DNA of 52,547 nt from a virus. The notes under the pieces were generated by a model that had not been told where the DNA came from, searched no databases, and saw nothing but the letters and a program-made list of their open reading frames with translations. The stretch is from positions 1-52,547 of IMG/VR virus record IMGVR_UViG_3300017605_000310; one strand, given 5' to 3'. Of the stretch, positions 12,332 through 44,853 are shown in pieces (within the stretch, counting starts at the first letter, position 1; each line of letters opens with the position of its first letter). The position numbers and the translations under genes are program-made.

Positions 12332-12427
12332 TCACGAATCTCCATCCTTGCGATGCGGTACGGGAGGATCAGCGCGCATCTCCATCGTGTGTCCGCGCGC
12401 AAAATCTTTCGTCATCTCTCTCGGCAT
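12332..12427 (-). CDS. Possible 31-aa peptide
   Basis: ATG overlaps the stop of the TnpB-like gene (TAATG) and the frame ends 3 nt before the next gene (MPREMTKDFARGH...). The tight packing argues for a real gene; the length and lack of homologues known to me argue caution. This stretch is also where a TnpB guide RNA would be expected. Confidence 0.35.
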   Translation of the reverse strand: MPREMTKDFARGHTMEMRADPPVPHRKDGDS

Positions 12428-13575
12428 TAGGGCTGCTCCTCTGAGGAGACCGGCGCGGCGGGAAGGGGTAACGCGCCCGACGCGGAGATGAACTTCTCCG
12501 TATTGCTCACGGTGGAGATTCCAGACACCGCCTCGCGACGGCTCTCGTGGCGCATTCCGCGCCCGACTCTGAGCGTGTTCTGAGCGGCGTTAACGTCCCG
12601 CTCATGCGCCGCACCACAGGCGGCACACGTCCAATGTCTAACCTTCAGCCCTGCCCAGCCGGTCGGACCCGTGCGGGCCAAACACACCGAACAGGTGCGA
12701 GTGGAATTCCGAGACGCAACCTCGACGAACTCGCGACCGCCTGCACGGCTCTTGTACGCGAGCATTGACCGAAGCTGGTAATGAGAAGCGCTAGTGACTG
12801 ATTTGCCGAATCGGCGCGCAAGATTACCGTGTGTATCCTTTGACCAGGCAATCAGGCGGTTCTCTGCGACTAGACGCCGCGAGAGTTTATGGTTCCGATC
12901 CTTCCGCTGATTCGCAGTGCGTTCGTGCAGCCGCGCAACCAACCGCGTGCGTGTCCCTCGTTGCGCTTGCCCTATCCGTGCTTCGGTGGCACGAAGCTCG
13001 TCGGGATGATCGACTACCTCTCCGGCGGATGTGGTGAGCAGGCTCGAAAAGCCCGGATCGACTCCAACCTCACCGTTAGCGATCAGCGCAATCGGCGCAG
13101 GTTCGGCTTGAATAAACAGGCAGAGATACCAGCCTAACGCACGCTTCACGATGCGAGCGCATCCGATGCGTCCCGCTTGAATCTCCTGTTTGTGAAATCG
13201 AAGGCGCGGCATACCAGGGAAACCAATTCGATCGCTGACCGGCCGTTTAAGTCCGTGCGTGGTTGGAATGCTATTCAGGCGATTGCGTCGGCCTTTTAGG
13301 CGAGGGGGTCTATTCTGGCGTGAGTAACAGCGCTTCCACGCGTCATAGGCTTGATCCGCAACGCCTTGTAAGACATGCAGCGGAATACCCATACGCAAGC
13401 TGTGGCCGTTCAACAACTGCTGGAATCCGTACCGCGAATAATAGACTCCGTGCGAGGCATCAGCTTCGATCTTCTTGATCGCCCAATTCCACACACCGGT
13501 GAGCCGAAACAACCACCGATTTAGTTGCCGTTCTTGGGCAGGTCGAAGCTTCAGTTTTATCTGACACTGAATCAT
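12427..13575 (-). CDS. TnpB-like RNA-guided protein with altered RuvC-II site, 382 aa
   Basis: IS200/IS605 OrfB/TnpB architecture: N-terminal helical region, RuvC-I Asp in EVGVDPG (D173), zinc finger CSVC (295-298) and CAAC (317-320), and RuvC-III Asp in HERDVNAAQNTL (D327). The segment HKLSRRLVAENRLIAWSKDTHG aligns with the usual HKLSR...IVVEDLNVKG, but the catalytic Glu position is Ser245. The protein may therefore be nuclease-dead, like the TldR repressors, or use a rearranged Glu (E285 is a candidate). No TnpA gene is near. Start and stop overlap the neighbouring early genes (ATGA, TAATG), so it looks domesticated in the operon rather than a fresh insertion. Confidence 0.85.
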   Translation of the reverse strand: MIQCQIKLKLRPAQERQLNRWLFRLTGVWNWAIKKIEADASHGVYYSRYGFQQLLNGHSLRMGIPLHVLQGVADQAYDAWKRCYSRQNRPPRLKGRRNRLNSIPTTHGLKRPVSDRIGFPGMPRLRFHKQEIQAGRIGCARIVKRALGWYLCLFIQAEPAPIALIANGEVGVDPGFSSLLTTSAGEVVDHPDELRATEARIGQAQRGTRTRLVARLHERTANQRKDRNHKLSRRLVAENRLIAWSKDTHGNLARRFGKSVTSASHYQLRSMLAYKSRAGGREFVEVASRNSTRTCSVCLARTGPTGWAGLKVRHWTCAACGAAHERDVNAAQNTLRVGRGMRHESRREAVSGISTVSNTEKFISASGALPLPAAPVSSEEQP

Positions 13576-16073: not shown

Positions 16074-16733
16074 TCAGCCTGAAGCGCCGTTATTCCCTGA
16101 CCCGTCGCTAACGTTGAACCCGTACTCGAATGTGATCTGGAGTCCGTCGTCTGTTGAAGCTGTCGGTAACGCCAGCCCAGAAGCGGCAAACTTTCGCACC
16201 ATCTGTTGCACGATCGCCGCTTTCAGATCGCCCCACGGCAAGGCCACATTGACCGTAACGTAGCCGTTGTTCTGGGCCTCCTTGCGCGGGAACCGACGCA
16301 TCCAATCAGAGCGGTTACAGTAAAACGCTTGCCGCAACAGTTCGAATGGAAGCAGGTAACATTTCTTCGCGCTCGGTATGGCGTAGGCGATAAAGTCGCA
16401 CCGCTTGTTCGCATCTAACGTCCAGCCGATCCTGTTGCGCGGGTCCGCTTCTCGATAGAAGACACTCCACTCCTCAAGTAAGACGTCGCCGTAATCCTTC
16501 GTCCGTTTCTTCTCATCGATCGTGTGTTGCTGGCCGTTCGCACGAATTACGATCCGATCGATCCCGTGCCGCTGGCCGTCGCCGTGGCGATCAACACGCA
16601 CACAGTTCGCCATGTCCGGCCAGAGGCGCTGATAGAACTCCACCCAACTCGGCTCATCGCTTAAACCTGCTGAATACTCCAACGACTCCGCGAACGAATG
16701 GACTATGCCGCTTGATTGCCCCACGCCTTCCAA
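16074..16733 (-). CDS. PD-(D/E)XK-like hypothetical protein, 219 aa
   Basis: The stretch GIDRIVIRANGQQHTIDEKKR has the spacing of a PD-(D/E)XK core (D-x(14-16)-E-K-K) with flanking charged residues (KDYGDVLLEEWS). The remaining sequence (RCDFIAYAIPSAKKCYLLPFELL) resembles the second half of restriction-endonuclease folds. It follows an adenine methylase, but whether they act together is unknown. The ATG lies 31 nt inside the upstream gene; a later TTG after GGAG is an alternative start. Confidence 0.6.
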   Translation of the reverse strand: MEGVGQSSGIVHSFAESLEYSAGLSDEPSWVEFYQRLWPDMANCVRVDRHGDGQRHGIDRIVIRANGQQHTIDEKKRTKDYGDVLLEEWSVFYREADPRNRIGWTLDANKRCDFIAYAIPSAKKCYLLPFELLRQAFYCNRSDWMRRFPRKEAQNNGYVTVNVALPWGDLKAAIVQQMVRKFAASGLALPTASTDDGLQITFEYGFNVSDGSGNNGASG

Positions 16734-17734
16734 CCCGTTCGCGGTGAACGACAGAACAATTCAATTCGCTGAAACTCCGGATACATCGCCTCAATCAATT
16801 CGTAAAACACTGGGGGCTTCGCGCTGTGCTCGCCCCGAGGCGCTGTCACAACCGAGTCAGGACGAACAGCCGGCTCAGGAACTGGCGGATTACCTTTCGT
16901 GGCAATCAGCAATAATTCGTGCCTTTGCCGCGCGTAGTAGCCCATCCCGATCTGATCCTTCACCCACACCATCGACGTGCGATAGACGAAGCCCCAGGCA
17001 TCCAGCACGCGCATGGCCTCGGCCAACTTCGGACTCGTCGCCCACAGAAACAACACGGCATCGGGAGTCGCGAGGGCTGACACAGGCAACGCGCAGATGT
17101 CGTCCAGTTCCATTGTCGGATACTGGTTCTCGATCGCCCTGTTCTCGGTTTTGATGTGCTCGTACCGCCAGGGAGGATCGGCGTAGATGACTGGAAAGGC
17201 TTCAGCCTGATTCAGTTCGGTATTTCCGCGGCTGATCTCGACAATGTTGTCGATACGCTCTTGCCGCCGCTCAGTTTGCTTTTTTGTTCGGAGAACTTCG
17301 GTGAGGTTCTGCTCACGCTGCGCGATAGCTTCACGCGTCTCTACTGGTAGCGCGGCAAGCTGTTGAGCTATAGCTGAGGTCTTCCAGGATATATCGAGGT
17401 CTGATAAATCTACCGTTGTGGAAGTTTTTTGTGGACGGCCTCTCTTACTTATCTGCCCTGCTTCTTGTGCAGCCGAAATCAATTCACCAAGTCGTGCTAG
17501 CGCCCGCATTTTGATCGCGTGCGCGAAACCGATCACTTCCTCGCCGAGCTGTTGGCGTTTTGCGAATACCTGCTGCGCTGCCGCAGCGTCCATTACCAGC
17601 TTGACTTGATCGACAGTGACCGCAACGCCGAGCGCCTTCTCAGCTTCAAGTAGTCGTTGAATAACGCGATCGCCAGCGACATGGACAGGGAGCGCAGACG
17701 CCTTCTGTAGTTTGGTAGACTTGCGAACAACCAT
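16703..17734 (-). CDS. MT-A70 family adenine methyltransferase, 343 aa
   Basis: Catalytic VIYADPPWRY (DPPW at 186-189), followed by FLWATSPKLAEAM, WVKDQIGMGYYARQRHELLLIATKG and the C-terminal IELFCRSPRTGWKAWGN, all typical of MT-A70 N6-adenine DNA methylases. The first 165 residues are helical, like the ParB/KorB-type region that phage members often carry. It probably methylates phage DNA at adenine for protection. The start overlaps a possible 24-residue frame (TGATG). Confidence 0.9.
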   Translation of the reverse strand: MVVRKSTKLQKASALPVHVAGDRVIQRLLEAEKALGVAVTVDQVKLVMDAAAAQQVFAKRQQLGEEVIGFAHAIKMRALARLGELISAAQEAGQISKRGRPQKTSTTVDLSDLDISWKTSAIAQQLAALPVETREAIAQREQNLTEVLRTKKQTERRQERIDNIVEISRGNTELNQAEAFPVIYADPPWRYEHIKTENRAIENQYPTMELDDICALPVSALATPDAVLFLWATSPKLAEAMRVLDAWGFVYRTSMVWVKDQIGMGYYARQRHELLLIATKGNPPVPEPAVRPDSVVTAPRGEHSAKPPVFYELIEAMYPEFQRIELFCRSPRTGWKAWGNQAA

Positions 17735-21434: not shown

Positions 21435-22079
21435 ATGAATCTGACAGATGGCAAGCGGGCGGGTGTACGCTGGAGACGCGCACTCATACTGATGCCTGTA
21501 TCTCGTACAAAACAACCGCTGTTACGCGCGTTTGGGCACGTATTGGGAGTCTTGCATCTGAAATTTGAGCAGAGCCGACAGCGCGCGTACAGTCATGCGG
21601 CCATTGCCAGGTTTGTTCGTGAGCGCGCCCCTTCTCTCCGTCTGGCGTTTGGAGGACCGACCTTGTGGCGGTGGGAGGAAGGCCAGGTAAACAGGACCGA
21701 TCCGTTAGTGTTGGAAGAACTGGCTGGCTTGTACGGCACCGACTATGCGTCGCTTAGCGCGGTGTTACGGGCTAACCGCGCAGACCCCACGCTTTCACCA
21801 GAAGATGGTTTAAAAATTCTGGAGGGTGTCAGTGACGCATCGCACACGAAGACTCCGAGTGATCGCTCGGACGCCGCAACCGTCCTCAATGTTGAGTATG
21901 TCGCTGAAATCGCCGCGCGACTCATCGACTCAGGGGACACACTCCATCAACTGGCCGAAGAGATCCTTGGGCGACAAGTTGCAGCTCTTGGCGATCCACC
22001 GACCGGGCGCGATGCTCGTGATCGAACATCTCGCGGACAAACTCCTCGCCACAATTCCAATCCACGACGAGGTGCGTGA
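21435..22079 (+). CDS. CI-like repressor candidate with HTH, 214 aa
   Basis: First gene rightward, divergent from the Cro-like gene. Residues about 35-100 resemble an XRE domain (YSHAAIARFVRERAP, TLWRWEEGQVNRTDPLVLEELAGLYG, ASLSAVLRANR). The C-terminal part has no S24 peptidase motif, so it would not be LexA-like. The last 45 codons are low in structure (TGRDARDRTSRGQTPRHNS), while the +1 frame there gives a better helical end (KLQLLAIHRPGAMLVIEHLADKLL), so a frameshift is possible. The stop shares a base with the integrase ATG. Confidence 0.65.
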   Translation: MNLTDGKRAGVRWRRALILMPVSRTKQPLLRAFGHVLGVLHLKFEQSRQRAYSHAAIARFVRERAPSLRLAFGGPTLWRWEEGQVNRTDPLVLEELAGLYGTDYASLSAVLRANRADPTLSPEDGLKILEGVSDASHTKTPSDRSDAATVLNVEYVAEIAARLIDSGDTLHQLAEEILGRQVAALGDPPTGRDARDRTSRGQTPRHNSNPRRGA

Positions 22080-23206
22080 TGCCTCGTCGCGGGAACCGTA
22101 AACGCCTCGCACGCGGCCTCTACGAAGATCGCACCGGCCGATCCGCCGTGTGCCTCGGCAAAGAGAAACGCTTTCCCCCGTACACGCCGCTGGCGATCAT
22201 GCGAACCTGGCAGGCCGCCATCCGCCGAAAGTACCGGGGGTCCGGCCGCCCGCGCGTCTCGCGCGGCACCTTAGCCGAAGCGGTCGATCGCTGGGACGGA
22301 TTAGAACGCCATCTCGCGAGTTGGAAGGAACGCCGCGCCGAACTGCGCGCGTGGGTCCGACTCTACGGAGACGTGCAGCGGCATACAATTCATGCAGACG
22401 ATGTACGAAAAGCCATCGGTATATGGACCGTAGAAAAGGTTGCGCCCAAGACCATCCGCAATCGGCTGTGGAGCTTGAAGCGGCTCTATCGTCTTCTGGA
22501 TGGGCCGGACGCCGAGACGCCGGTGGATCATGTCGCCCCGCCGTCCGTCCCACGCCGCGTGATCACGCCGGTCGAACCGGCAGACATTCTCAAGGTCTAT
22601 CGGCGCTTGCTCGAATTTGAGCGCGGCACGCGCCCACGGCTGCGCGACGCCAAGACCCGCGCCAGGTTCATGGTACGCGCCGCCACAGGCCGACGTCCCG
22701 TGGAGATCATGCGCGCGAAGCCAGAAGACGTGGACCTGACGCGACGGATCTGGCGAGTGAGAGATGCGAAGGGCGGGTGGTCGGAAGGACTCTATCTGAA
22801 CGACGACATGCTGGCCGCGTGGACGCTCTTCGCACAATCGAATGCCTGGGGCCACTTCAACACCGGGAGCATGGCCGAAGTCCTACGAGCGGCTGGCTGG
22901 CCGGCTGGCATCCGCCCCTACAACCTCCGACACTCGATCGGGATTGGCCTGAGTGAGCTTGGGCATGATCTCGCCGACGTAGGCGGCTGGCTGGGCCACC
23001 GTGACCCCAGAACGACGCGGAGCGCCTATGTGCCAGTCCTCCACAGTCGAATGCAGCGCCTCTCTGAGAGCTTGCAGGGGCGTCTACAAGGGTGGGGTGC
23101 CAAGCGCGGTGCCATGAATGCTCCAGCGAAACGCGCTAAAGTGCTCCAAAATAAGCAGGGGCGAAAACTGGGCAAGAAAGCGAAAGGACGAAGGAATGCT
23201 CAATGA
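22079..23206 (+). CDS. int: Tyrosine recombinase (phage integrase), 375 aa
   Basis: Catalytic domain: Arg I in TGRRPVEIMR (about 204-212), beta-hairpin Lys in RDAKGGW, box II RPYNLRHSIG with Arg284 and His285 (the usual first His is Tyr281), GHRDPRTT (His307) and the nucleophile Tyr317 in RSAYVPV. The N-terminal SAM-like core-binding region spans about 60-145. It integrates and excises the prophage. An attP-like tRNA end lies 17 bp downstream. The Lys/Arg-rich C-terminal tail (about 40 residues) is longer than usual. ATG at 22079 overlaps the upstream TGA; a GTG lies one codon earlier. Confidence 0.92.
   Translation: MPRRGNRKRLARGLYEDRTGRSAVCLGKEKRFPPYTPLAIMRTWQAAIRRKYRGSGRPRVSRGTLAEAVDRWDGLERHLASWKERRAELRAWVRLYGDVQRHTIHADDVRKAIGIWTVEKVAPKTIRNRLWSLKRLYRLLDGPDAETPVDHVAPPSVPRRVITPVEPADILKVYRRLLEFERGTRPRLRDAKTRARFMVRAATGRRPVEIMRAKPEDVDLTRRIWRVRDAKGGWSEGLYLNDDMLAAWTLFAQSNAWGHFNTGSMAEVLRAAGWPAGIRPYNLRHSIGIGLSELGHDLADVGGWLGHRDPRTTRSAYVPVLHSRMQRLSESLQGRLQGWGAKRGAMNAPAKRAKVLQNKQGRKLGKKAKGRRNAQ
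23096..23114. repeat. Pair of GGTGCCA repeats, candidate integrase arm sites (left)
   Basis: GGTGCCA at 23096-23102 and 23108-23114 (the second extends to GGTGCCATGAATG), 12 bp apart, inside the 3' end of int. A matching pair lies on the other side of the attP core. Confidence 0.5.
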
Positions 23207-24965: not shown

Positions 24966-25778
24966 TCACTCTCTCGGCCATGTCGGATCCGTGCCGAGCG
25001 CCGTTGCTTCCGCGATTTGTCGGCCGGCAATCACAATCGGCACCGGCCGCGTTTCCAAGGTCGTCACGCGCTGCGCCAACGCGGTAATCTGACTCGCTAG
25101 TTGGTCAATCGTCGGCACCGTGGGCAGTAAGGCTTGCTCCACCGCCGCGCACGCTTCGCCGGAACGCTTGAGCAGCTTGTCCAAGTCCCGGAAGTTGATC
25201 CACGCGATGCCAGACAACCCCCATGTTGTTCCCCATGAGTTCACCATCTGAAACCGCTTCGTCTCGACGCTGTACCCGCACAGCAGATAGGCGTGTCCGC
25301 CTTCCACCTGCCCGCTGACGTCCAGTACTCCCGCTGAACTCGGCGTCATCATGTCCGACAGCCAGTCCGTGCCCATGACGACGGTTCCTGTGCTGATCAG
25401 GAAGTCCCGCACGTCCGCTGCGGAACCGGCCCAGACGTAGCTCTTCAAACAGCCCGCAATGGAGAGGGCTTTGGCCCCGCCTCTCACGCTGCTTCCGCTG
25501 TAATCTTCACCGGGCCATTCGTCGTTCACCTGTGCTTCGTGGTAAATCTCGTGAGCCGTCATGCCGTCCGTGGTGAGTGTGGGTTCGCTGCTGAGGAATT
25601 GACGCCAACTGTATCCAACACATTCGGAGCTGGACCCCTGGTCTAAAACTGGTCCGGTCTTATAGAACCGAGAGACTTGCGGAATGTTCGACGGCAGCAT
25701 GGCCCTGAGCGGAAATCGTAAGTCGCGAGCATCAGGCGAATAGATGCGGCCGAATTGAACCTTCGATATATCAGTCAT
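24966..25778 (-). CDS. Papain-like (C1 family) cysteine peptidase, 270 aa
   Basis: C1 landmarks: oxyanion Gln and catalytic Cys in VLDQGSSSECVGYSW (Q47, C53), catalytic His in EGGHAYLLCGY (H162) and Asn in MVNSWGTTWG (N180). The last 60 residues form a helix and strand (IDQLASQITALAQRVTTLE) that may anchor or trimerise it. No signal peptide. It lies in the lysis/tail-end region, so it could cleave host envelope peptides, act in the virion, or target host proteins. Substrate unknown. Confidence 0.8.
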   Translation of the reverse strand: MTDISKVQFGRIYSPDARDLRFPLRAMLPSNIPQVSRFYKTGPVLDQGSSSECVGYSWRQFLSSEPTLTTDGMTAHEIYHEAQVNDEWPGEDYSGSSVRGGAKALSIAGCLKSYVWAGSAADVRDFLISTGTVVMGTDWLSDMMTPSSAGVLDVSGQVEGGHAYLLCGYSVETKRFQMVNSWGTTWGLSGIAWINFRDLDKLLKRSGEACAAVEQALLPTVPTIDQLASQITALAQRVTTLETRPVPIVIAGRQIAEATALGTDPTWPRE

Positions 25779-37250: not shown

Positions 37251-37649
37251 TTAGAAGGTGGACGCCCACGCGCCATTCGCGGCAAAGCTGCCCGAGATCT
37301 GCACCGCGCCCGAGACGCTGGTATCGATCGAGACATCCAGCCACGCCGGCCCCGAGTGAAACTTCGACGGCGCATTCGCCGCGGGATACAGATAGATCTT
37401 GCAGCCGTCCGTGGAGGTCGCCGCAGTGAAGGGCTTCGATTCCGTGTCATCCCAGAAGCCCGCAAACGTGCCCTGGATGTCCGGCAGTCCCTGCACGTAC
37501 GTCTTGTTGGTGTCGCCGAACGCGGTGACTTCGATCTTGTCGGTGTTCTTGTTCAGCGTCCACGCGTTGAGCTTGATCACGTTCGTGGCGGTGCCACTGC
37601 CCGTGGTCGAGAGGTAGATGACTCCGGCTCTTCCTGGATAGACAGCCAT
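37251..37649 (-). CDS. Major tail protein, 132 aa
   Basis: Pattern of phage tail-tube subunits: AGVIYLSTTGSGTATNVIKL, NAWTLNKNTDKIEVTAFGDT, NKTYVQGLPDIQGTFAGFWD and a final DTSVSGAVQISGSFAANG. The V-E-V-T-A-F-G-D block is characteristic. It would form the helical tube around the tape measure. Small for the family but complete. Confidence 0.88.
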   Translation of the reverse strand: MAVYPGRAGVIYLSTTGSGTATNVIKLNAWTLNKNTDKIEVTAFGDTNKTYVQGLPDIQGTFAGFWDDTESKPFTAATSTDGCKIYLYPAANAPSKFHSGPAWLDVSIDTSVSGAVQISGSFAANGAWASTF

Positions 37650-37659
37650 GTGTTGACTC

Positions 37660-38748
37660 CTACGCCGCCACTCGGGCGAGCGTCTGAAGATCCCCGATCA
37701 CCGTGGCTGCCCTCTGCACCCACGATGACTCGGCCACACAGGCCGGTAGTTGCTGCGCTACACGCGCCCGTCCGTCTGGGTCGTTCAACCACACACGGAT
37801 GAGCGCCGCCGCCTCGGTCGGCGTCTGGAAGGTCGGGACCAGATCCCCGAACACTTCCGGGACTTCCGCCCGGTACTCTGAGAGATGAAACGAGCCGCAT
37901 GCTGCCAATTCATAGGCACGCGGGCTCAACGATTCGGCATGGGTGATCCGTTCCACCCGTTTGCCCCAACCCTTGGATCGGCGATAGAGATTCAGGCCCA
38001 CCGTCGCGCGGCGATAGAGCGCAGCGGCCATCTCGTTCGTGACCTGATCCCCCTTGACACAGGCCATCACTTGCTTGTTCAGGCCCAACTTCTTCCAGGT
38101 GCCATAGAGCCCGAGGTCGATCCCGGTCCAGTCGATGCTGTTGAACCACGTCACGCGCTCAGCAAAGCCCGACCCGACAAACACCACGTCGTGCGCGGGC
38201 AGCTCCCCAACCGCCAGTGCGGAGACGTAGTGCTTGCCGGGATGCCACGCATGCGCGAGATACCCCGCATGCGGATTAACCGACCGGAAGGCGGGTACCA
38301 TGGTGCGTTCATTCGTCCAGCACCCATCGACCATCGCGGCGATCCGCATTTCCTGCTCATGGTCATAGGGGGATTCGGTAAACAGCACCGTCACCCGCAA
38401 CCCTGCCCGCTTCATCATGATCACGACGTCTGGATGGAGCAGGGACGCAGACACAACAAGCACCACGTCTACTTGCTTGCGGAGCGCCATCTCCAGCGCC
38501 CCGACACCCGCGTGATACATCACGTCAGCGACGTTGGGCTTGACCAGATCCGGCTGCTCTTTCTTCTTGGTTCTCCAGAGCCAATACAACGCACGTTGCG
38601 AGGCTTCGATCCGGGTATCGAGTCGATACGATTCGACCACGACGCCGTGATGCCGGAGCCCATAGAGCAGCCCGTCGAACACATCGGCGGTACTCCATGA
38701 CGCCCCTGGATGGCACAGCAACACGCGCAACGGTCGCGTCTCAGGCAC
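37660..38748 (-). CDS. CgeB-like glycosyltransferase, 362 aa
   Basis: Starts at GTG 38748, five bases after a strong GGAGG; an earlier ATG lacks such a site. N-terminal Rossmann half (RPLRVLLCHPGASWSTADVF, DVVLVVSASLLHPDVV, LRVTVLFTESPYDHEQE) and a GT-B C-terminal half with SLSPRAYELAACGSFHLSEY and EVFGDLVPTFQTPTEAAALI, matching the CgeB/Glyco_trans_1_2 family. It transfers a sugar from an activated donor, probably inside the cell. Last gene of the sugar/radical-SAM cluster, 11 bp before the major tail protein. Confidence 0.85.
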   Translation of the reverse strand: MPETRPLRVLLCHPGASWSTADVFDGLLYGLRHHGVVVESYRLDTRIEASQRALYWLWRTKKKEQPDLVKPNVADVMYHAGVGALEMALRKQVDVVLVVSASLLHPDVVIMMKRAGLRVTVLFTESPYDHEQEMRIAAMVDGCWTNERTMVPAFRSVNPHAGYLAHAWHPGKHYVSALAVGELPAHDVVFVGSGFAERVTWFNSIDWTGIDLGLYGTWKKLGLNKQVMACVKGDQVTNEMAAALYRRATVGLNLYRRSKGWGKRVERITHAESLSPRAYELAACGSFHLSEYRAEVPEVFGDLVPTFQTPTEAAALIRVWLNDPDGRARVAQQLPACVAESSWVQRAATVIGDLQTLARVAA

Positions 38749-38935
38749 GGATGCCTCCTGAGAGCGGCCATGAACGCGCTGGCCCTGTGTCTCTGGGCGA
38801 GTCCTTCCACTCAGCGAGGTCAATGACCAGTCTCGCCAGTGCCGGTGTGGCGTTCTCGTTGATGTACATGTTCCGTGTCACGCGTAATAATTCCTCGGCT
38901 TCCTGTTCGCTCAGTCCTCGTGGTGGTCCCGTCAT
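38741..38935 (-). CDS. Small helical protein, 64 aa
   Basis: MTGPPRGLSEQEAEELLRVT and PALARLVIDLAEWKD; helical. Start overlaps the GT2 stop (ATGA) and its own stop overlaps the CgeB-like start. Possibly a cofactor of the cluster; no family known. Confidence 0.6.
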   Translation of the reverse strand: MTGPPRGLSEQEAEELLRVTRNMYINENATPALARLVIDLAEWKDSPRDTGPARSWPLSGGIRA

Positions 38936-39501
38936 GCGCGTGCCATTGCCGCTTGCTGTTCAGCCCAGACGCTGTTGTGGCCTAACAAAACCGTCACTTC
39001 CGGCCGCCACACGATGTCATCGCGTCGCCAGTGCATCGTTTCGAGAAACCCGAAGTCGCCGCCGTCATATGATCCCCATGTGCCAAACTTCGCCGGCTCA
39101 TTCGGGATCAGCATCATGGCGGTGCCGACATTCCCAAACGTCAGGGCGGGCTCGCGCCAGAGCGTCACGCCGTTCGGATAGCGCATCCGAAATAGGATGG
39201 GACGATGCGGCGTCGTACACATCACCTCTTCCATCAGCGCTCTGGCATCCGGCGCATATGTGTCGTCGTCGTCAATGTGCGCGAGGTACTGCCCCTGTGC
39301 CATTGGCGAGGCGACGTTGCGTTCGGTATGCCCCCAGTCATGCCCGGCCGGACAATAGATGTGACGCACTGGCTTTGACGGCTGAAGATCCAGGCGTTCA
39401 CTGACCAGCAAGATCTCGTCTCCAGGCCAGAGCTCGATAGAGTCCAATGTGGCCTGCAGTGACGGCCGTCCGATCGTCGGCACGATGAAGCTGATCGTCA
39501 T
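38932..39501 (-). CDS. GT2-family glycosyltransferase, 189 aa
   Basis: GT-A fold: MTISFIVPTIGRPSLQATLD at the N-terminus, and the DXD-type metal site AHIDDDDTYAPDA near residue 85. Later TWGSYDGGDFGFLETMHWRR resembles the acceptor/His-rich end of GT2 enzymes. ATG at 39501 overlaps the upstream stop. It would add a sugar to an as yet unknown acceptor. Short for GT2 but with all core parts. Confidence 0.85.
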   Translation of the reverse strand: MTISFIVPTIGRPSLQATLDSIELWPGDEILLVSERLDLQPSKPVRHIYCPAGHDWGHTERNVASPMAQGQYLAHIDDDDTYAPDARALMEEVMCTTPHRPILFRMRYPNGVTLWREPALTFGNVGTAMMLIPNEPAKFGTWGSYDGGDFGFLETMHWRRDDIVWRPEVTVLLGHNSVWAEQQAAMARA

Positions 39502-40220
39502 GACGCCCAGCTCCCCGGCATCGTCTCGATACGCAACGGACACAGCGCATGGAGACGCTCCACGGCATCCTTGACCGCTTGCGCATGCGTACACGTCCAG
39601 TACGTGGGGTCTTTGCCGAGGATGTCCTTATCGGATTCCTCAAAGACCTGATCGGGTTGGAATCCTGCCCAGTCATGGTCGATCTGCACCGCGGGCAACA
39701 TCACGCACCGCCCGAAGATCGCCATGACGTCCCGGAGATACATGTCCCCCCAGAAGATGCGTGGATCCCATAGAAAGCCGAGGCGTTCCGTGACCTTTCG
39801 CGAGACGATCGAGAACGGGTAATGCGTTTCGTTGTGCGTCGAGACGCCGAAATCAAAGACGCCATCGGGATACTGGTTAGCAGCCGAGAGGATCAGCGAT
39901 GGCCAGCCCACTGTCTGGAACACCATGTCGTCGTTGCCGCACATCAAGACGTCGCCGGTAGACGCTGCCAGTAACTCGTTGAAGAACCGCGGCATGCTCT
40001 GATAACCCTGATGTCGTGGCCCGACCACCAGGTGAATGCTGCCGTTCCGCAGATGTTGCGATGAGAGATAGTCTTGCGTCTCCAGATCGTCGTCATCCAC
40101 CCGAAAGACCAGCTCGGTATCACTGCTGCCGCAAATCGTGCGCGCGTAGGACGCCAATAACGTCTCAAGTCTGCCCACTCGGTGCCGCGTCGGAATCAGG
40201 ACGGATATTTTGGTAAACAT
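39498..40220 (-). CDS. GT2-like glycosyltransferase, 240 aa
   Basis: MFTKISVLIPTRHRVGRLET, then ELVFRVDDDDLETQDYL and MCGNDDMVFQTVGW (DDD/NDD metal-site candidates), and a C-terminal HDWAGFQPDQVFEESD. GT-A fold. The ATG at 40220 shares a base with the radical SAM stop. Substrate unknown. Confidence 0.8.
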   Translation of the reverse strand: MFTKISVLIPTRHRVGRLETLLASYARTICGSSDTELVFRVDDDDLETQDYLSSQHLRNGSIHLVVGPRHQGYQSMPRFFNELLAASTGDVLMCGNDDMVFQTVGWPSLILSAANQYPDGVFDFGVSTHNETHYPFSIVSRKVTERLGFLWDPRIFWGDMYLRDVMAIFGRCVMLPAVQIDHDWAGFQPDQVFEESDKDILGKDPTYWTCTHAQAVKDAVERLHALCPLRIETMPGSWAS

Positions 40221-41818
40221 CAGTGCCCTGCGTACGTCAGCGTGCTGGCGGCGGCTGCGGTCAGTGTGCCTGCGGCTGCCGCGGCTTCTTGCTGTCGGCG
40301 AATCCGCACATCTTCTTGCCACTCCGCTTTCGCCCACCCATGCTCCACGAGAAACCGAAACATCTCGTTTTTGATCACAAACATGTCTTCCACGGTGGAG
40401 CCATGCGGCCTGACGAGGATTTCGTCTCGATCAGAAAACCCGACAATCCATTGGTTGTCGTAGTTGTAATCAACGATGTCGATGCCGGATTGCTGCGGGT
40501 GCGTCCACCAGCGCGAGCCCGGATAGGGAATCCCGACTGCTAGATTGCACGAGTCGAGATAGGGCTTGACACTCAATAGCCAGTCCTGTGTTTCGCGCAT
40601 CGTCTCGAGCGTTTCGCCGGACATGCCAATGACCAGAAAGGCGATGGTGTAGAATCCGTGTTCTTTCGCTCGCTTCACTGCGTCGGTGTTCTGCTGAACC
40701 TTCGTGCCCTTCTGATTCGCATCCAGCACACGTTGTGATCCCGACTCAATCCCGAAGCACGTCACCTTGCAGTTCATCAGTTTCAGGGATTCGGCAACGT
40801 GATCGTCCATCGTGTTCACGCGCGTGTGGATACGAGATGCGAAACTCCCATAGCCGAACTCGGCATGAACGGCCTCGGCGAGCTCGCGCAACTTCGTGCG
40901 ATGCAGGGTGTAGGTATCGTCCTGGAACTTGAACATGTGGACGCCCTTGTCCATCACCTGTCTCATTTCCATGATGATGTTCTGGGGCGAGCGATACCGC
41001 GGCTTCTGGCCAATCCACGGGGTGGAGCAGTACGTGCATTTATAGGGGCAGCCACGCGTCCCGATCAGGCTCATCACCGGAAACGTGCCGGGACGTTGCG
41101 AACTCTCGATATAGGGCCGCTTCATCACGGCCACGCCATCGTTGTAAATGTGATCGTCCGGCAGCAGATCCCACGCGGGGAATGGAATGGCATCCAGATC
41201 CATCGCGTCAGACTTGTCGCCGTAGTAGAACGGTTGGAGTTGGCCTTGATGCCAGTCGCTCAGCATCTGGAGCGTCGCGCGCTCCCCTTCCATCACGATC
41301 ACGGTATCGAACAGAGGGGCCGAGCCATCCTGTGCGCGATAGTCACGCCGTTCAGCCAGTACGCCTTTGACGTGGTACTGCGCCTGCCGACCGGCGTCTT
41401 TGGTTTCCTTCGGTTCGTAGGACGGATGCGGGCCACCAGCCACGATCAAGGCGTCAGGATTGCGATCCTTGATATAGGCGGCGAGTTCCAGCGCTTCCCC
41501 GAATTGCGGGGTACAGAACCCGAACATATGCACGTCGGCATCCATCACCTCTTCAGGAAGATGGATGTTCCCCTCGTAGCGCTTGTCCAACATCGACGTG
41601 ACAACGACGTCGTGACCTGCCTCACGAAGCAGTCCCGCGATGTAGAGCACTCCGAGGGGAATGTTGGTCTTGCTATCAGCGAGCCACGGGCTGGACGGGA
41701 GGATGCAGTGGATCTTCTTCCGCGGCACCGTCAGAATCGGCAGACCAGACGTCGGCACGTCACCACACAGGCTCTGATCGCTCATCTGATAGCCGGAGGA
41801 CGCCATCGTAAGTCGCAT
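40220..41818 (-). CDS. Cobalamin-binding-type radical SAM enzyme, 532 aa
   Basis: Residues 35-190 form a B12-binding-like Rossmann domain (KKIHCILPSSPWLADSKTNI, PLGVLYIAGLLREAGHDVVV, PDALIVAGGPHPSYEPKE). The radical SAM cluster is GTRGCPYKCTYCSTPW (C257, C261, C264), followed by FKFQDDTYTL, CFGIESGSQRVLDANQKGT and AFLVIGMSGETLETMRETQD, as in class B methylase-like enzymes (BchE family). It binds a 4Fe-4S cluster and cleaves SAM; B12 relatives methylate carbon or phosphorus or rearrange rings. Embedded between glycosyltransferases with start/stop overlaps, so a sugar or glycan is a likely substrate (inference). Start at 41818 follows TGATG coupling. Confidence 0.88.
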   Translation of the reverse strand: MRLTMASSGYQMSDQSLCGDVPTSGLPILTVPRKKIHCILPSSPWLADSKTNIPLGVLYIAGLLREAGHDVVVTSMLDKRYEGNIHLPEEVMDADVHMFGFCTPQFGEALELAAYIKDRNPDALIVAGGPHPSYEPKETKDAGRQAQYHVKGVLAERRDYRAQDGSAPLFDTVIVMEGERATLQMLSDWHQGQLQPFYYGDKSDAMDLDAIPFPAWDLLPDDHIYNDGVAVMKRPYIESSQRPGTFPVMSLIGTRGCPYKCTYCSTPWIGQKPRYRSPQNIIMEMRQVMDKGVHMFKFQDDTYTLHRTKLRELAEAVHAEFGYGSFASRIHTRVNTMDDHVAESLKLMNCKVTCFGIESGSQRVLDANQKGTKVQQNTDAVKRAKEHGFYTIAFLVIGMSGETLETMRETQDWLLSVKPYLDSCNLAVGIPYPGSRWWTHPQQSGIDIVDYNYDNQWIVGFSDRDEILVRPHGSTVEDMFVIKNEMFRFLVEHGWAKAEWQEDVRIRRQQEAAAAAGTLTAAAASTLTYAGH

Positions 41819-42582
41819 CAATACACCTGCGCCCCGTGATAGCGAGCCCACATCTGTTTCAGGTCAATGCCTTTGCTCCGCAACTGCTGATGGGCGAGAT
41901 CCAGATCGCGCACAGCCGTGTGTTGGGGGTGATAGAACAACGCTTCAGGAATCCGGACACACTCCGTGCCTGTTGCGTGCAACTTGTGCTGGAAGTGCGT
42001 CTGGGCATGGCCCCATGCGGTGAGTTCTTCGTCCAGAGCCCCGACGCGATCGAACGCTGAGCGACGCGCCATCCAGACCCCGGCGTCGATACAGGTGTAA
42101 TCGGACTCGGTGCCAACAAAGCACTCCCGCAAGAGTTGTGGCCCCAAGCAGCGCCACGCCACGCGTTCACAGGCGGCGATGTCATCGACCAGGTGATAGA
42201 CATGCCCGGTAATGAACCCGTCCCAGTCGTCAGGTCGAGCCTCAGCGACTGTTGCGAACTTTTTCGCCGTGCTGAAGTCCAGCAAATAATCCGCACGGCA
42301 GAACAGCACCCACGGGGTGACGGCTTCACGCACGGCGACGTTCGTGGACCATGAGTGCGTCTTGGTCGGATCGCCATGCTTAAACGAGAGCAACTGCACC
42401 GGCACGGGAAACGACAGGTCGTCAATAACTGAACGTATGGCGTCAGACGGGTCGGCCGTATCGTTATCCACCACCACGATCGACTCCACGCGAGACAGAT
42501 CCTGCTGACGGACGGAGAACAGCGCGGCGGCGAGATTCGCCAGCGAGAGGCTCTTGAAATAGGTGAAGCAAATCGTGATCAC
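41818..42582 (-). CDS. GT2-like glycosyltransferase, 254 aa
   Basis: MITICFTYFKSLSLANLAAA, SIVVVDNDTADPSDAIRSVI, VTPWVLFCRADYLLDFS (R-A-D in the DXD position) and CIDAGVWMARRSAFDRVGAL, then GALDEELTAWGHAQTHFQHK typical of GT-A acceptor regions. First gene of the cluster, joined to the gp10-like head gene upstream by an ATGA overlap, which ties the cluster to late transcription. Confidence 0.8.
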   Translation of the reverse strand: MITICFTYFKSLSLANLAAALFSVRQQDLSRVESIVVVDNDTADPSDAIRSVIDDLSFPVPVQLLSFKHGDPTKTHSWSTNVAVREAVTPWVLFCRADYLLDFSTAKKFATVAEARPDDWDGFITGHVYHLVDDIAACERVAWRCLGPQLLRECFVGTESDYTCIDAGVWMARRSAFDRVGALDEELTAWGHAQTHFQHKLHATGTECVRIPEALFYHPQHTAVRDLDLAHQQLRSKGIDLKQMWARYHGAQVY

Positions 42583-43001
42583 GTATGCACCACAAACCCA
42601 GCCCGACGCACGAGGTCAATGAGCGCTGACACCATCGCGCGACGGCGGCGAATAATGATCGGGATCATGCGCTCGCCCTCCGGTGCGACTGGCATCGAGC
42701 CTCGGCTCGCACCATTCCTCGTCCGTCGGGCTTTCGTTCCATACTCAAAGAGGGAGGCATGCTTCGCGCGACTACGTACAATCGCCGACGCTCCATAACG
42801 CGTTCGCCCTCGCGTGCTCGTGACACCACGACGCAGATTGCCAGTCGGTCCTTCCGGATAGGCCCGCTGGATCTGGGTCTTGGCCTCTTCGGCTTGCGCT
42901 TCTACGATCACGCCGGCTTCATTCACTAGATCCTCTGGGAGTTGCCGCAAGGCGCGACGGAACTCATCAATCCCGACCATCACCAGCTTGTTCTGGCTCA
43001 C
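42579..43001 (-). CDS. HK97 gp10-like head-tail protein, 140 aa
   Basis: VMVGIDEFRRALRQLPEDLV, YPEGPTGNLRRGVTSTRGRT, HASLFEYGTKARRTRNGASR, matching the HK97 gp10 family (tail terminator/completion region). Located after the head-closure gene, as expected. Start overlaps by one base. Confidence 0.85.
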   Translation of the reverse strand: MSQNKLVMVGIDEFRRALRQLPEDLVNEAGVIVEAQAEEAKTQIQRAYPEGPTGNLRRGVTSTRGRTRYGASAIVRSRAKHASLFEYGTKARRTRNGASRGSMPVAPEGERMIPIIIRRRRAMVSALIDLVRRAGFVVHT

Positions 43002-44790: not shown

Positions 44791-44853
44791 GGCAGTTCGC
44801 TCCTCTGGAGAAACAGAGGGAGCGGAGGACCATCCCCCGCCCCCTCATGCGAA

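Follow-up and report, generated by a model that had tools for sequence, protein, structure and literature searches.

Here we report that IMG/VR virus record IMGVR_UViG_3300017605_000310, analysed over all of its 52,547 bases (the window), carries a gene cassette between a gp10-like head gene and the gene for the major tail protein, in which a radical S-adenosylmethionine (SAM) enzyme of the vitamin B12-binding type is encoded together with three GT2-type glycosyltransferases (GTs) and one CgeB-like GT. We read it, with a probability of roughly 0.6, as a mobile virion-glycosylation cassette within the late head-tail operon. Its gene content, operon coupling, conservation, recurrence and modular exchange are apparent from the sequences compared. 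Few phage isolates are known to glycosylate their virions (the case of mycobacteriophage Che8 and its relatives is reportedly described by Freeman et al. 2023, cited in PMC11256854 and PMC13313380), and a cassette that is both conserved and mobile between structural contexts suggests that a layer of phage surface chemistry has gone unexamined.

In the mechanism that we propose, soluble GTs in the cytoplasm would draw on host nucleotide sugars to assemble an oligosaccharide attached to a virion protein. The leading candidate in the window phage is the tail tube protein, which is encoded beside the CgeB-like GT. The radical SAM enzyme would then edit one sugar of this glycan at an unactivated carbon, most likely by C-methylation, otherwise by deoxygenation or epimerisation. 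Related phages swap the contents of the slot that precedes the CgeB-tail tube gene pair, and through this exchange the outer part of the glycan would vary.

Gene content and operon structure

All genes of the cassette lie on the minus strand, in the order gp10-like gene, GT2a, radical SAM gene, GT2b, GT2c, a 64-residue open reading frame (ORF), CgeB-like GT and major tail protein. The upstream end is marked by the gp10-like neck/tail-completion gene (42579..43001; PF04883, 31.2 bits; phrog_5, 2e-11), followed by GT2a (41818..42582), a GT-A glycosyltransferase with a Glyco_transf_7C-like C-terminus (PF00535, 24.2 bits; cut-off 23.3), and by the radical SAM gene (40220..41818), whose product matches PF04055 (79.7 bits) and PF02310 (48.9 bits), each over its cut-off. 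GT2b (39498..40220) scores just below the PF00535 cut-off at 22.4 bits and matches a PHROG glycosyltransferase family (phrog_14945, E=1.4e-15), while GT2c (38932..39501) lies over that cut-off at 24.6 bits. The 64-residue ORF (38741..38935) precedes the CgeB-like GT-B glycosyltransferase (37660..38748; PF13524, 61.4 bits), beyond which lies the major tail (tube) protein gene (37251..37649; phrog_10528, 7.6e-10), whose product is our candidate glycan acceptor. ORFs, coordinates and Pfam and PHROG identities agree with the gene set that a preliminary description of this DNA had placed between gp10 and the tail protein.

The overlaps claimed there, both inside the cluster and to the head genes, could be read from the sequence at every junction: GTGA between gp10 and GT2a (42579-42582), TGATG between GT2a and the radical SAM gene (41816-41820), TGATG at 40220 between the latter and GT2b, ATGA between GT2b and GT2c (39498-39501), and ATGA between GT2c and the 64-residue ORF (38932-38935). 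This ORF in turn overlaps the CgeB-like gene by 8 nt, the GTG start of the latter (38748) having CAGGAGG upstream, and a gap of about 10 nt separates the end of the CgeB-like gene from the ATG of the tail protein gene. The likely starts of the radical SAM gene (ATG, 41818) and the CgeB-like gene (GTG, 38748) give shorter proteins than the longest ORFs. The 64-residue ORF is a singleton and possibly not a gene: none of the libraries and loci searched contained a homologue, and its overlaps are the sole argument for it.

The minus strand of the cassette region showed no promoter-like site, and terminator-like sites are close to the number expected by chance. The terminase, portal, prohead protease, capsid, adaptor and tail genes share the strand of the cassette. 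Directly 3' of the capsid gene, at 44816-44846 on the minus strand, there is a strong terminator-like hairpin of 14 pairs.

Recurrence and mobility of the cassette

Thirty IMG/VR loci carry the radical SAM gene (60-91% identity), and a second scan with an alignment of the family returned mainly the same contigs. A search of phage genomes for its co-occurrence with GT genes had been suggested in the preliminary description; one or more of the three GT2 families accompanies it in 30/30 loci, and GT2a, GT2b and GT2c are all present in nearly every locus with enough flanking sequence (one locus, L022, has GT2a only). Since the arrangement recurs in about 30 contigs, it is not a product of chance. 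In most loci a class I methyltransferase gene (~245 codons) adjoins the radical SAM gene, and the cassette is enlarged by additional GT2 and GT4-like genes.

Gene clustering and PHROG labels place the cassette among structural genes at four positions or more, assigned by our reading of partial contigs: between head-closure-type and neck genes (context a, e.g. L012 and L032), between portal/collagen-like and adaptor genes (context b, e.g. L005), between gp10 and the CgeB-tail tube pair (context c, the window) and between terminase and capsid genes (context d, L013). In the tree of the radical SAM proteins the window falls into one clade with three type-a loci and one type-b locus (100/100 support), and at least six context changes are required overall. 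The capsid proteins of the phages that bear the cassette do not cluster together. Such varied positions in phages with unlike capsid proteins argue that the cassette has moved between phages as a module.

Two further features of these loci deserve mention. At L005:6238-7763 and in similar type-b loci, the cassette is flanked by genes for two proteins, one collagen-like and the other MptE-like (PHROG label alpha-2,3-sialyltransferase), of which the collagen-like one is another possible acceptor. At L001:4757-4942 the cassette contains an ORF of 61 residues whose end resembles the C-terminus of a tape measure protein (VVNIDGRKLAEI...VRRHGLA).

A common host cassette unrelated to phage late genes, which had been named as the outcome that would speak against a phage function, was looked for and was absent from the material searched. 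One scan of genome contigs with two patterns, which was not exhaustive, gave a single close match, from a metagenome-assembled genome of Sulfuricaulis (83%), on a contig that has the type-a phage order and is thus a phage contig; the other matches were at most 30% identical to the radical SAM protein. Sixty genomes related to this Sulfuricaulis yielded two more, at 28 and 32%. Host cargo was accordingly rejected as the source, cellular homologues being no more than about 32% identical. Among GenBank phages the radical SAM protein has a single match, at 25% identity, in Streptomyces phage SF3, and a search for near-identical DNA gave only a 34-base match. The combination of genes thus appears to be unseen among sequenced phage isolates, this one distant match aside.

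A variable slot beside the tail tube gene

Close relatives of the window phage show which part of the region is exchanged. A capsid protein 53-76% identical to that of the window is encoded in 37 loci, where the usual order, as far as covered, is gp10, a variable slot, CgeB and tail tube. By our tabulation, CgeB lies directly upstream of the tail tube gene in 17 of the 21 loci with this tail-protein family; in three others (L007, L009 and L027) it adjoins the tail gene too, its long ORF overlapping that gene, and L004 alone among the 21 is without it. The slot may hold TylF-like O-methyltransferases (L078, L083), other class I methyltransferases (L064, L091), SPASM-type radical SAM proteins (L057:14694-15824, L081:10297-11361) or GT2s other than those of the window. 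One relative, L063, resembles the window, but another GT2 replaces GT2a and the radical SAM gene.

Late expression of the cassette together with virion genes and a glycan that is first built and then edited, as had been proposed, are well supported by the operon structure, by recurrence inside structural operons, by the constant CgeB-tail tube pair and by the interchangeable sugar-tailoring enzymes of the slot. If our reading of the cassette is right, the exchangeable slot would be a natural experiment in phage surface variation.

The glycosyltransferases and the site of the glycan

The GTs keep the motifs of their families: RADY and WGHAQT are conserved in 13 homologues of GT2a, whose nearest PDB entries by profile are TarF and chondroitin synthase, D-x-DD and GNDD are invariant in 11 homologues of GT2b, and DDDD in 11 of GT2c. 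For the CgeB-like protein a profile gave no match to PDB sequences, and its assignment was settled by a fold search with Foldseek, in which a good AlphaFold2 model (mean predicted local distance difference test score 88) showed a GT-B fold closest to BshA, MshA and PimA-like enzymes. None of 50,697 GenBank phage records held a homologue of it at 1e-5.

Hydropathy peaks of the cassette proteins range from 0.6 to 1.9 over 19 residues, with no clear membrane segment; that of the CgeB-like protein (1.87, at residue 92) lies on a strand of the predicted GT-B fold. By hydropathy the GTs are soluble and cytoplasmic, and they are encoded with structural genes, as expected of a phage virion-glycosylation locus. 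The marks of O-antigen conversion of the gtr type, a flippase, a polyprenyl GT or a membrane segment, were not found among the cassette proteins. The preliminary description had left the choice between virion and host surface as the site of the glycan. The lack of a clear membrane segment and of flippase and polyprenyl enzymes in the cassette favours the virion, which we consider the probable acceptor, and leaves the host surface the less favoured site. In homologues of the tail tube protein an N-terminal segment rich in serine and threonine (STTGSG) is common and is a candidate acceptor site.

A cassette that instead alters a host surface glycan, lipopolysaccharide or capsule, during infection or lysogeny, so as to block superinfection or change adsorption, seems unlikely to us. 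The window phage may be temperate, given its tyrosine integrase (22076-23206, plus strand), and GTs beside the tail fibres of pelagiphages are interpreted in this way in the available portion of PMC7029224, with radical SAM genes in the same region. An integrase, however, was seen in just 2 of the 20 parent records, of which many are fragments, and the cassette has neither a membrane-bound GT nor a flippase, polymerase or acetyltransferase. Its position in the head-tail operon, where its starts are coupled and no promoter of its own rises above chance, also speaks against a host-surface role.

The radical SAM enzyme

The enzyme carries the CxxxCxxC 4Fe-4S motif of the radical SAM core as CPYKCTYC (PF04055, 3.6e-22), with its three cysteines invariant in 21 sequences whose alignment has a mean column identity of 83%. 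The N-terminal B12-binding domain is recognised well above the PF02310 cut-off of 32.1 bits and has structural matches in TsrM, TokK and OxsB. Characterised equivalogs of this class (HpnJ, BchE, PhpK and others) fell short of their NCBIfam cut-offs, the best being HpnJ at 110.8 against 577.6 bits, as did the AprD4-type equivalog NF033070 (71 against 500 bits). With a moderate AlphaFold2 model (predicted TM-score 0.74), Foldseek ranked AprD4 best (7e-17), with MiaB, TsrM and MgmA also matched, and AprD4 and MgmA rank first by sequence profile. The methylation put forward in the preliminary description is only one possible chemistry, and AprD4, which matches best by structure, is a radical dehydratase; we regard methylation and the other radical reactions taken together as evenly poised.

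Measured against the window, the ratio of nonsynonymous to synonymous change per site (pN/pS) is 0.10-0.39 for the radical SAM gene (0.10-0.29 without the divergent L026), 0.29-0.59 for GT2a, 0.36-0.48 for GT2b and 0.33-0.53 for GT2c, pS being similar across genes and mostly saturated. Slower evolution of the radical SAM enzyme than of its GTs fits a fixed reaction in a varying glycan, and other causes are possible. The high identity of the enzyme was dropped as a sign of recent transfer, with synonymous sites near saturation.

Outside the catalytic core, in regions of low model confidence, the N-terminal ~27 residues (YQMS...TSGLP) and the C-terminal ~10 (YAGH) are strongly conserved. When YQMS and YAGH were searched for in other proteins, only fragments of the radical SAM protein or a fusion-like ORF call were returned. 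At L003:9112-10701 the frame is broken by one stop, which may be real or an assembly error.

A second phage family of B12-type radical SAM proteins, 28-29% identical to that of the window, is encoded immediately before the capsid gene in L075 (5510-6937) and L077 (2345-3733), and in at least 90 virus stretches altogether (loci L092-L169 included), some on contigs of more than 200 kb. GTs, methyltransferases, GDP-mannose dehydratase, epimerases and UDP-glucose dehydrogenase are the Pfam families that occur most often among 88 neighbours taken from about 30 of its loci. These sugar-gene neighbours, together with the sugar substrates of AprD4, GenK and GenD1, favour a glycan substrate for the enzyme of the window.

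Because MgmA, which C-methylates a glutamine of methyl-coenzyme M reductase, is among the best structural and profile matches, the window enzyme might modify an amino-acid side chain of a virion protein, with the GTs acting separately or on the modified residue. We think this improbable, somewhat more so than a host-surface role: the enzyme is constantly paired with GTs and not with one virion protein family, what takes its place in the slot is of sugar type, as with the TylF-like methyltransferases, and the second family sits with nucleotide-sugar genes. That the substrate is a glycan is the part of our proposal in which we have high confidence. We advance more tentatively, and at somewhat less than even odds, the fuller statement that the exchangeable locus, through a B12-dependent radical SAM enzyme, gives tail or head proteins a sugar that is carbon-branched (e.g. 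C-methylated) or deoxygenated, and that at least two phage families of such enzymes serve it.

Points weighing against virion glycosylation

Several observations count against virion glycosylation as the function of the cassette. The acceptor and the product on virion proteins are what we infer from sequence, and since the phages concerned differ in both capsid and tail proteins, no single acceptor family explains all of them. The CgeB-tail tube linkage could reflect plain shared descent. Genes for nucleotide-sugar synthesis were not recognised in the cassette, and the window is without the class I methyltransferase of most loci. The radical SAM protein is of the B12-binding type (class B) by its domains, cobalamin binding being predicted, and AprD4, its closest fold, is to our knowledge not B12-dependent. 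Finally, the methyltransferase, GT and radical SAM genes of L022 have no recognised structural genes close to them and lie near DNA polymerase A.

DNA hypermodification, in which a base would be altered and then glycosylated, was considered as well, since glycosylated phage DNA and radical SAM enzymes that take part in DNA hypermodification are both known. We hold it to be very improbable. In all informative loci except L022 the genes sit with virion genes and not with replication genes, and no thymidylate synthase was found in 20 records, many of them fragments, by a search whose controls gave matches. The absence of a TET/JBP match in 33 records weighs little, since the controls were likewise without a match.

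Elsewhere in the window, on the minus strand, are encoded a TnpB/Cas12f-like protein with Cas12f1-like TNB and OrfB_IS605 domains (12427-13575), an MT-A70 adenine methyltransferase (16703-17734) and a papain-family protease domain (24966-25778).

Comparison with known systems

The preliminary description knew of no B12-type radical SAM enzyme together with phage GTs. An annotated phage enzyme does exist: SF3 gp36 is, like that of the window, a phage-encoded B12-binding radical SAM protein. Its match, however, covers 46% of the query, and its neighbours are a thymidylate kinase and a NUDIX hydrolase, without GTs. The pelagiphage host-recognition cluster (PMC7029224) resembles the cassette, in the portion of the paper available, in that GTs and radical SAM genes share a variable region of the phage, the type of the latter not being stated there; unlike the window cassette, it belongs to the tail-fibre region of large myophages and is interpreted as modifying host lipopolysaccharide.

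Outside phages, the nearest parallels are enzymes of aminoglycoside biosynthesis. Two of them, GenK and GenD1, are radical SAM enzymes of class B (B12) that C-methylate sugars (PMC5461906); as in the window cassette, a B12-type radical SAM enzyme stands beside sugar-handling enzymes, and their substrate is a sugar carbon, but they belong to actinomycete antibiotic pathways, and the phage enzyme is likened to them by description, reaching no NCBIfam equivalog cut-off. AprD4, a radical SAM diol dehydratase (PDB 6fd2) that acts in the deoxygenation of a sugar-containing substrate with the reductase partner AprD3 (PMC5461906), matches the radical SAM core best, by structure as well as by profile. 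Identity is 18-19%, the profile match covers the core and not the N-terminal domain, and no candidate for AprD3 was recognised in the window cassette.

The closest functional counterpart is virion glycosylation as reported for mycobacteriophages such as Che8 (PMC11256854), in which phage GTs, sometimes with a methyltransferase, are thought or shown to decorate virion proteins (PMC11256854, PMC13313380), as we propose for the cassette. The available portions of these papers describe no B12-type radical SAM enzyme or radical sugar chemistry, and place the GTs of Maravista near the 3' end of the genome, whereas those of the cassette lie between neck and tail tube genes. The cassette would thus be a new variant of phage virion glycosylation and, if our reading is true, phages would be a source of unusual glycan-editing enzymes and viruses would diversify their own coat by radical chemistry.

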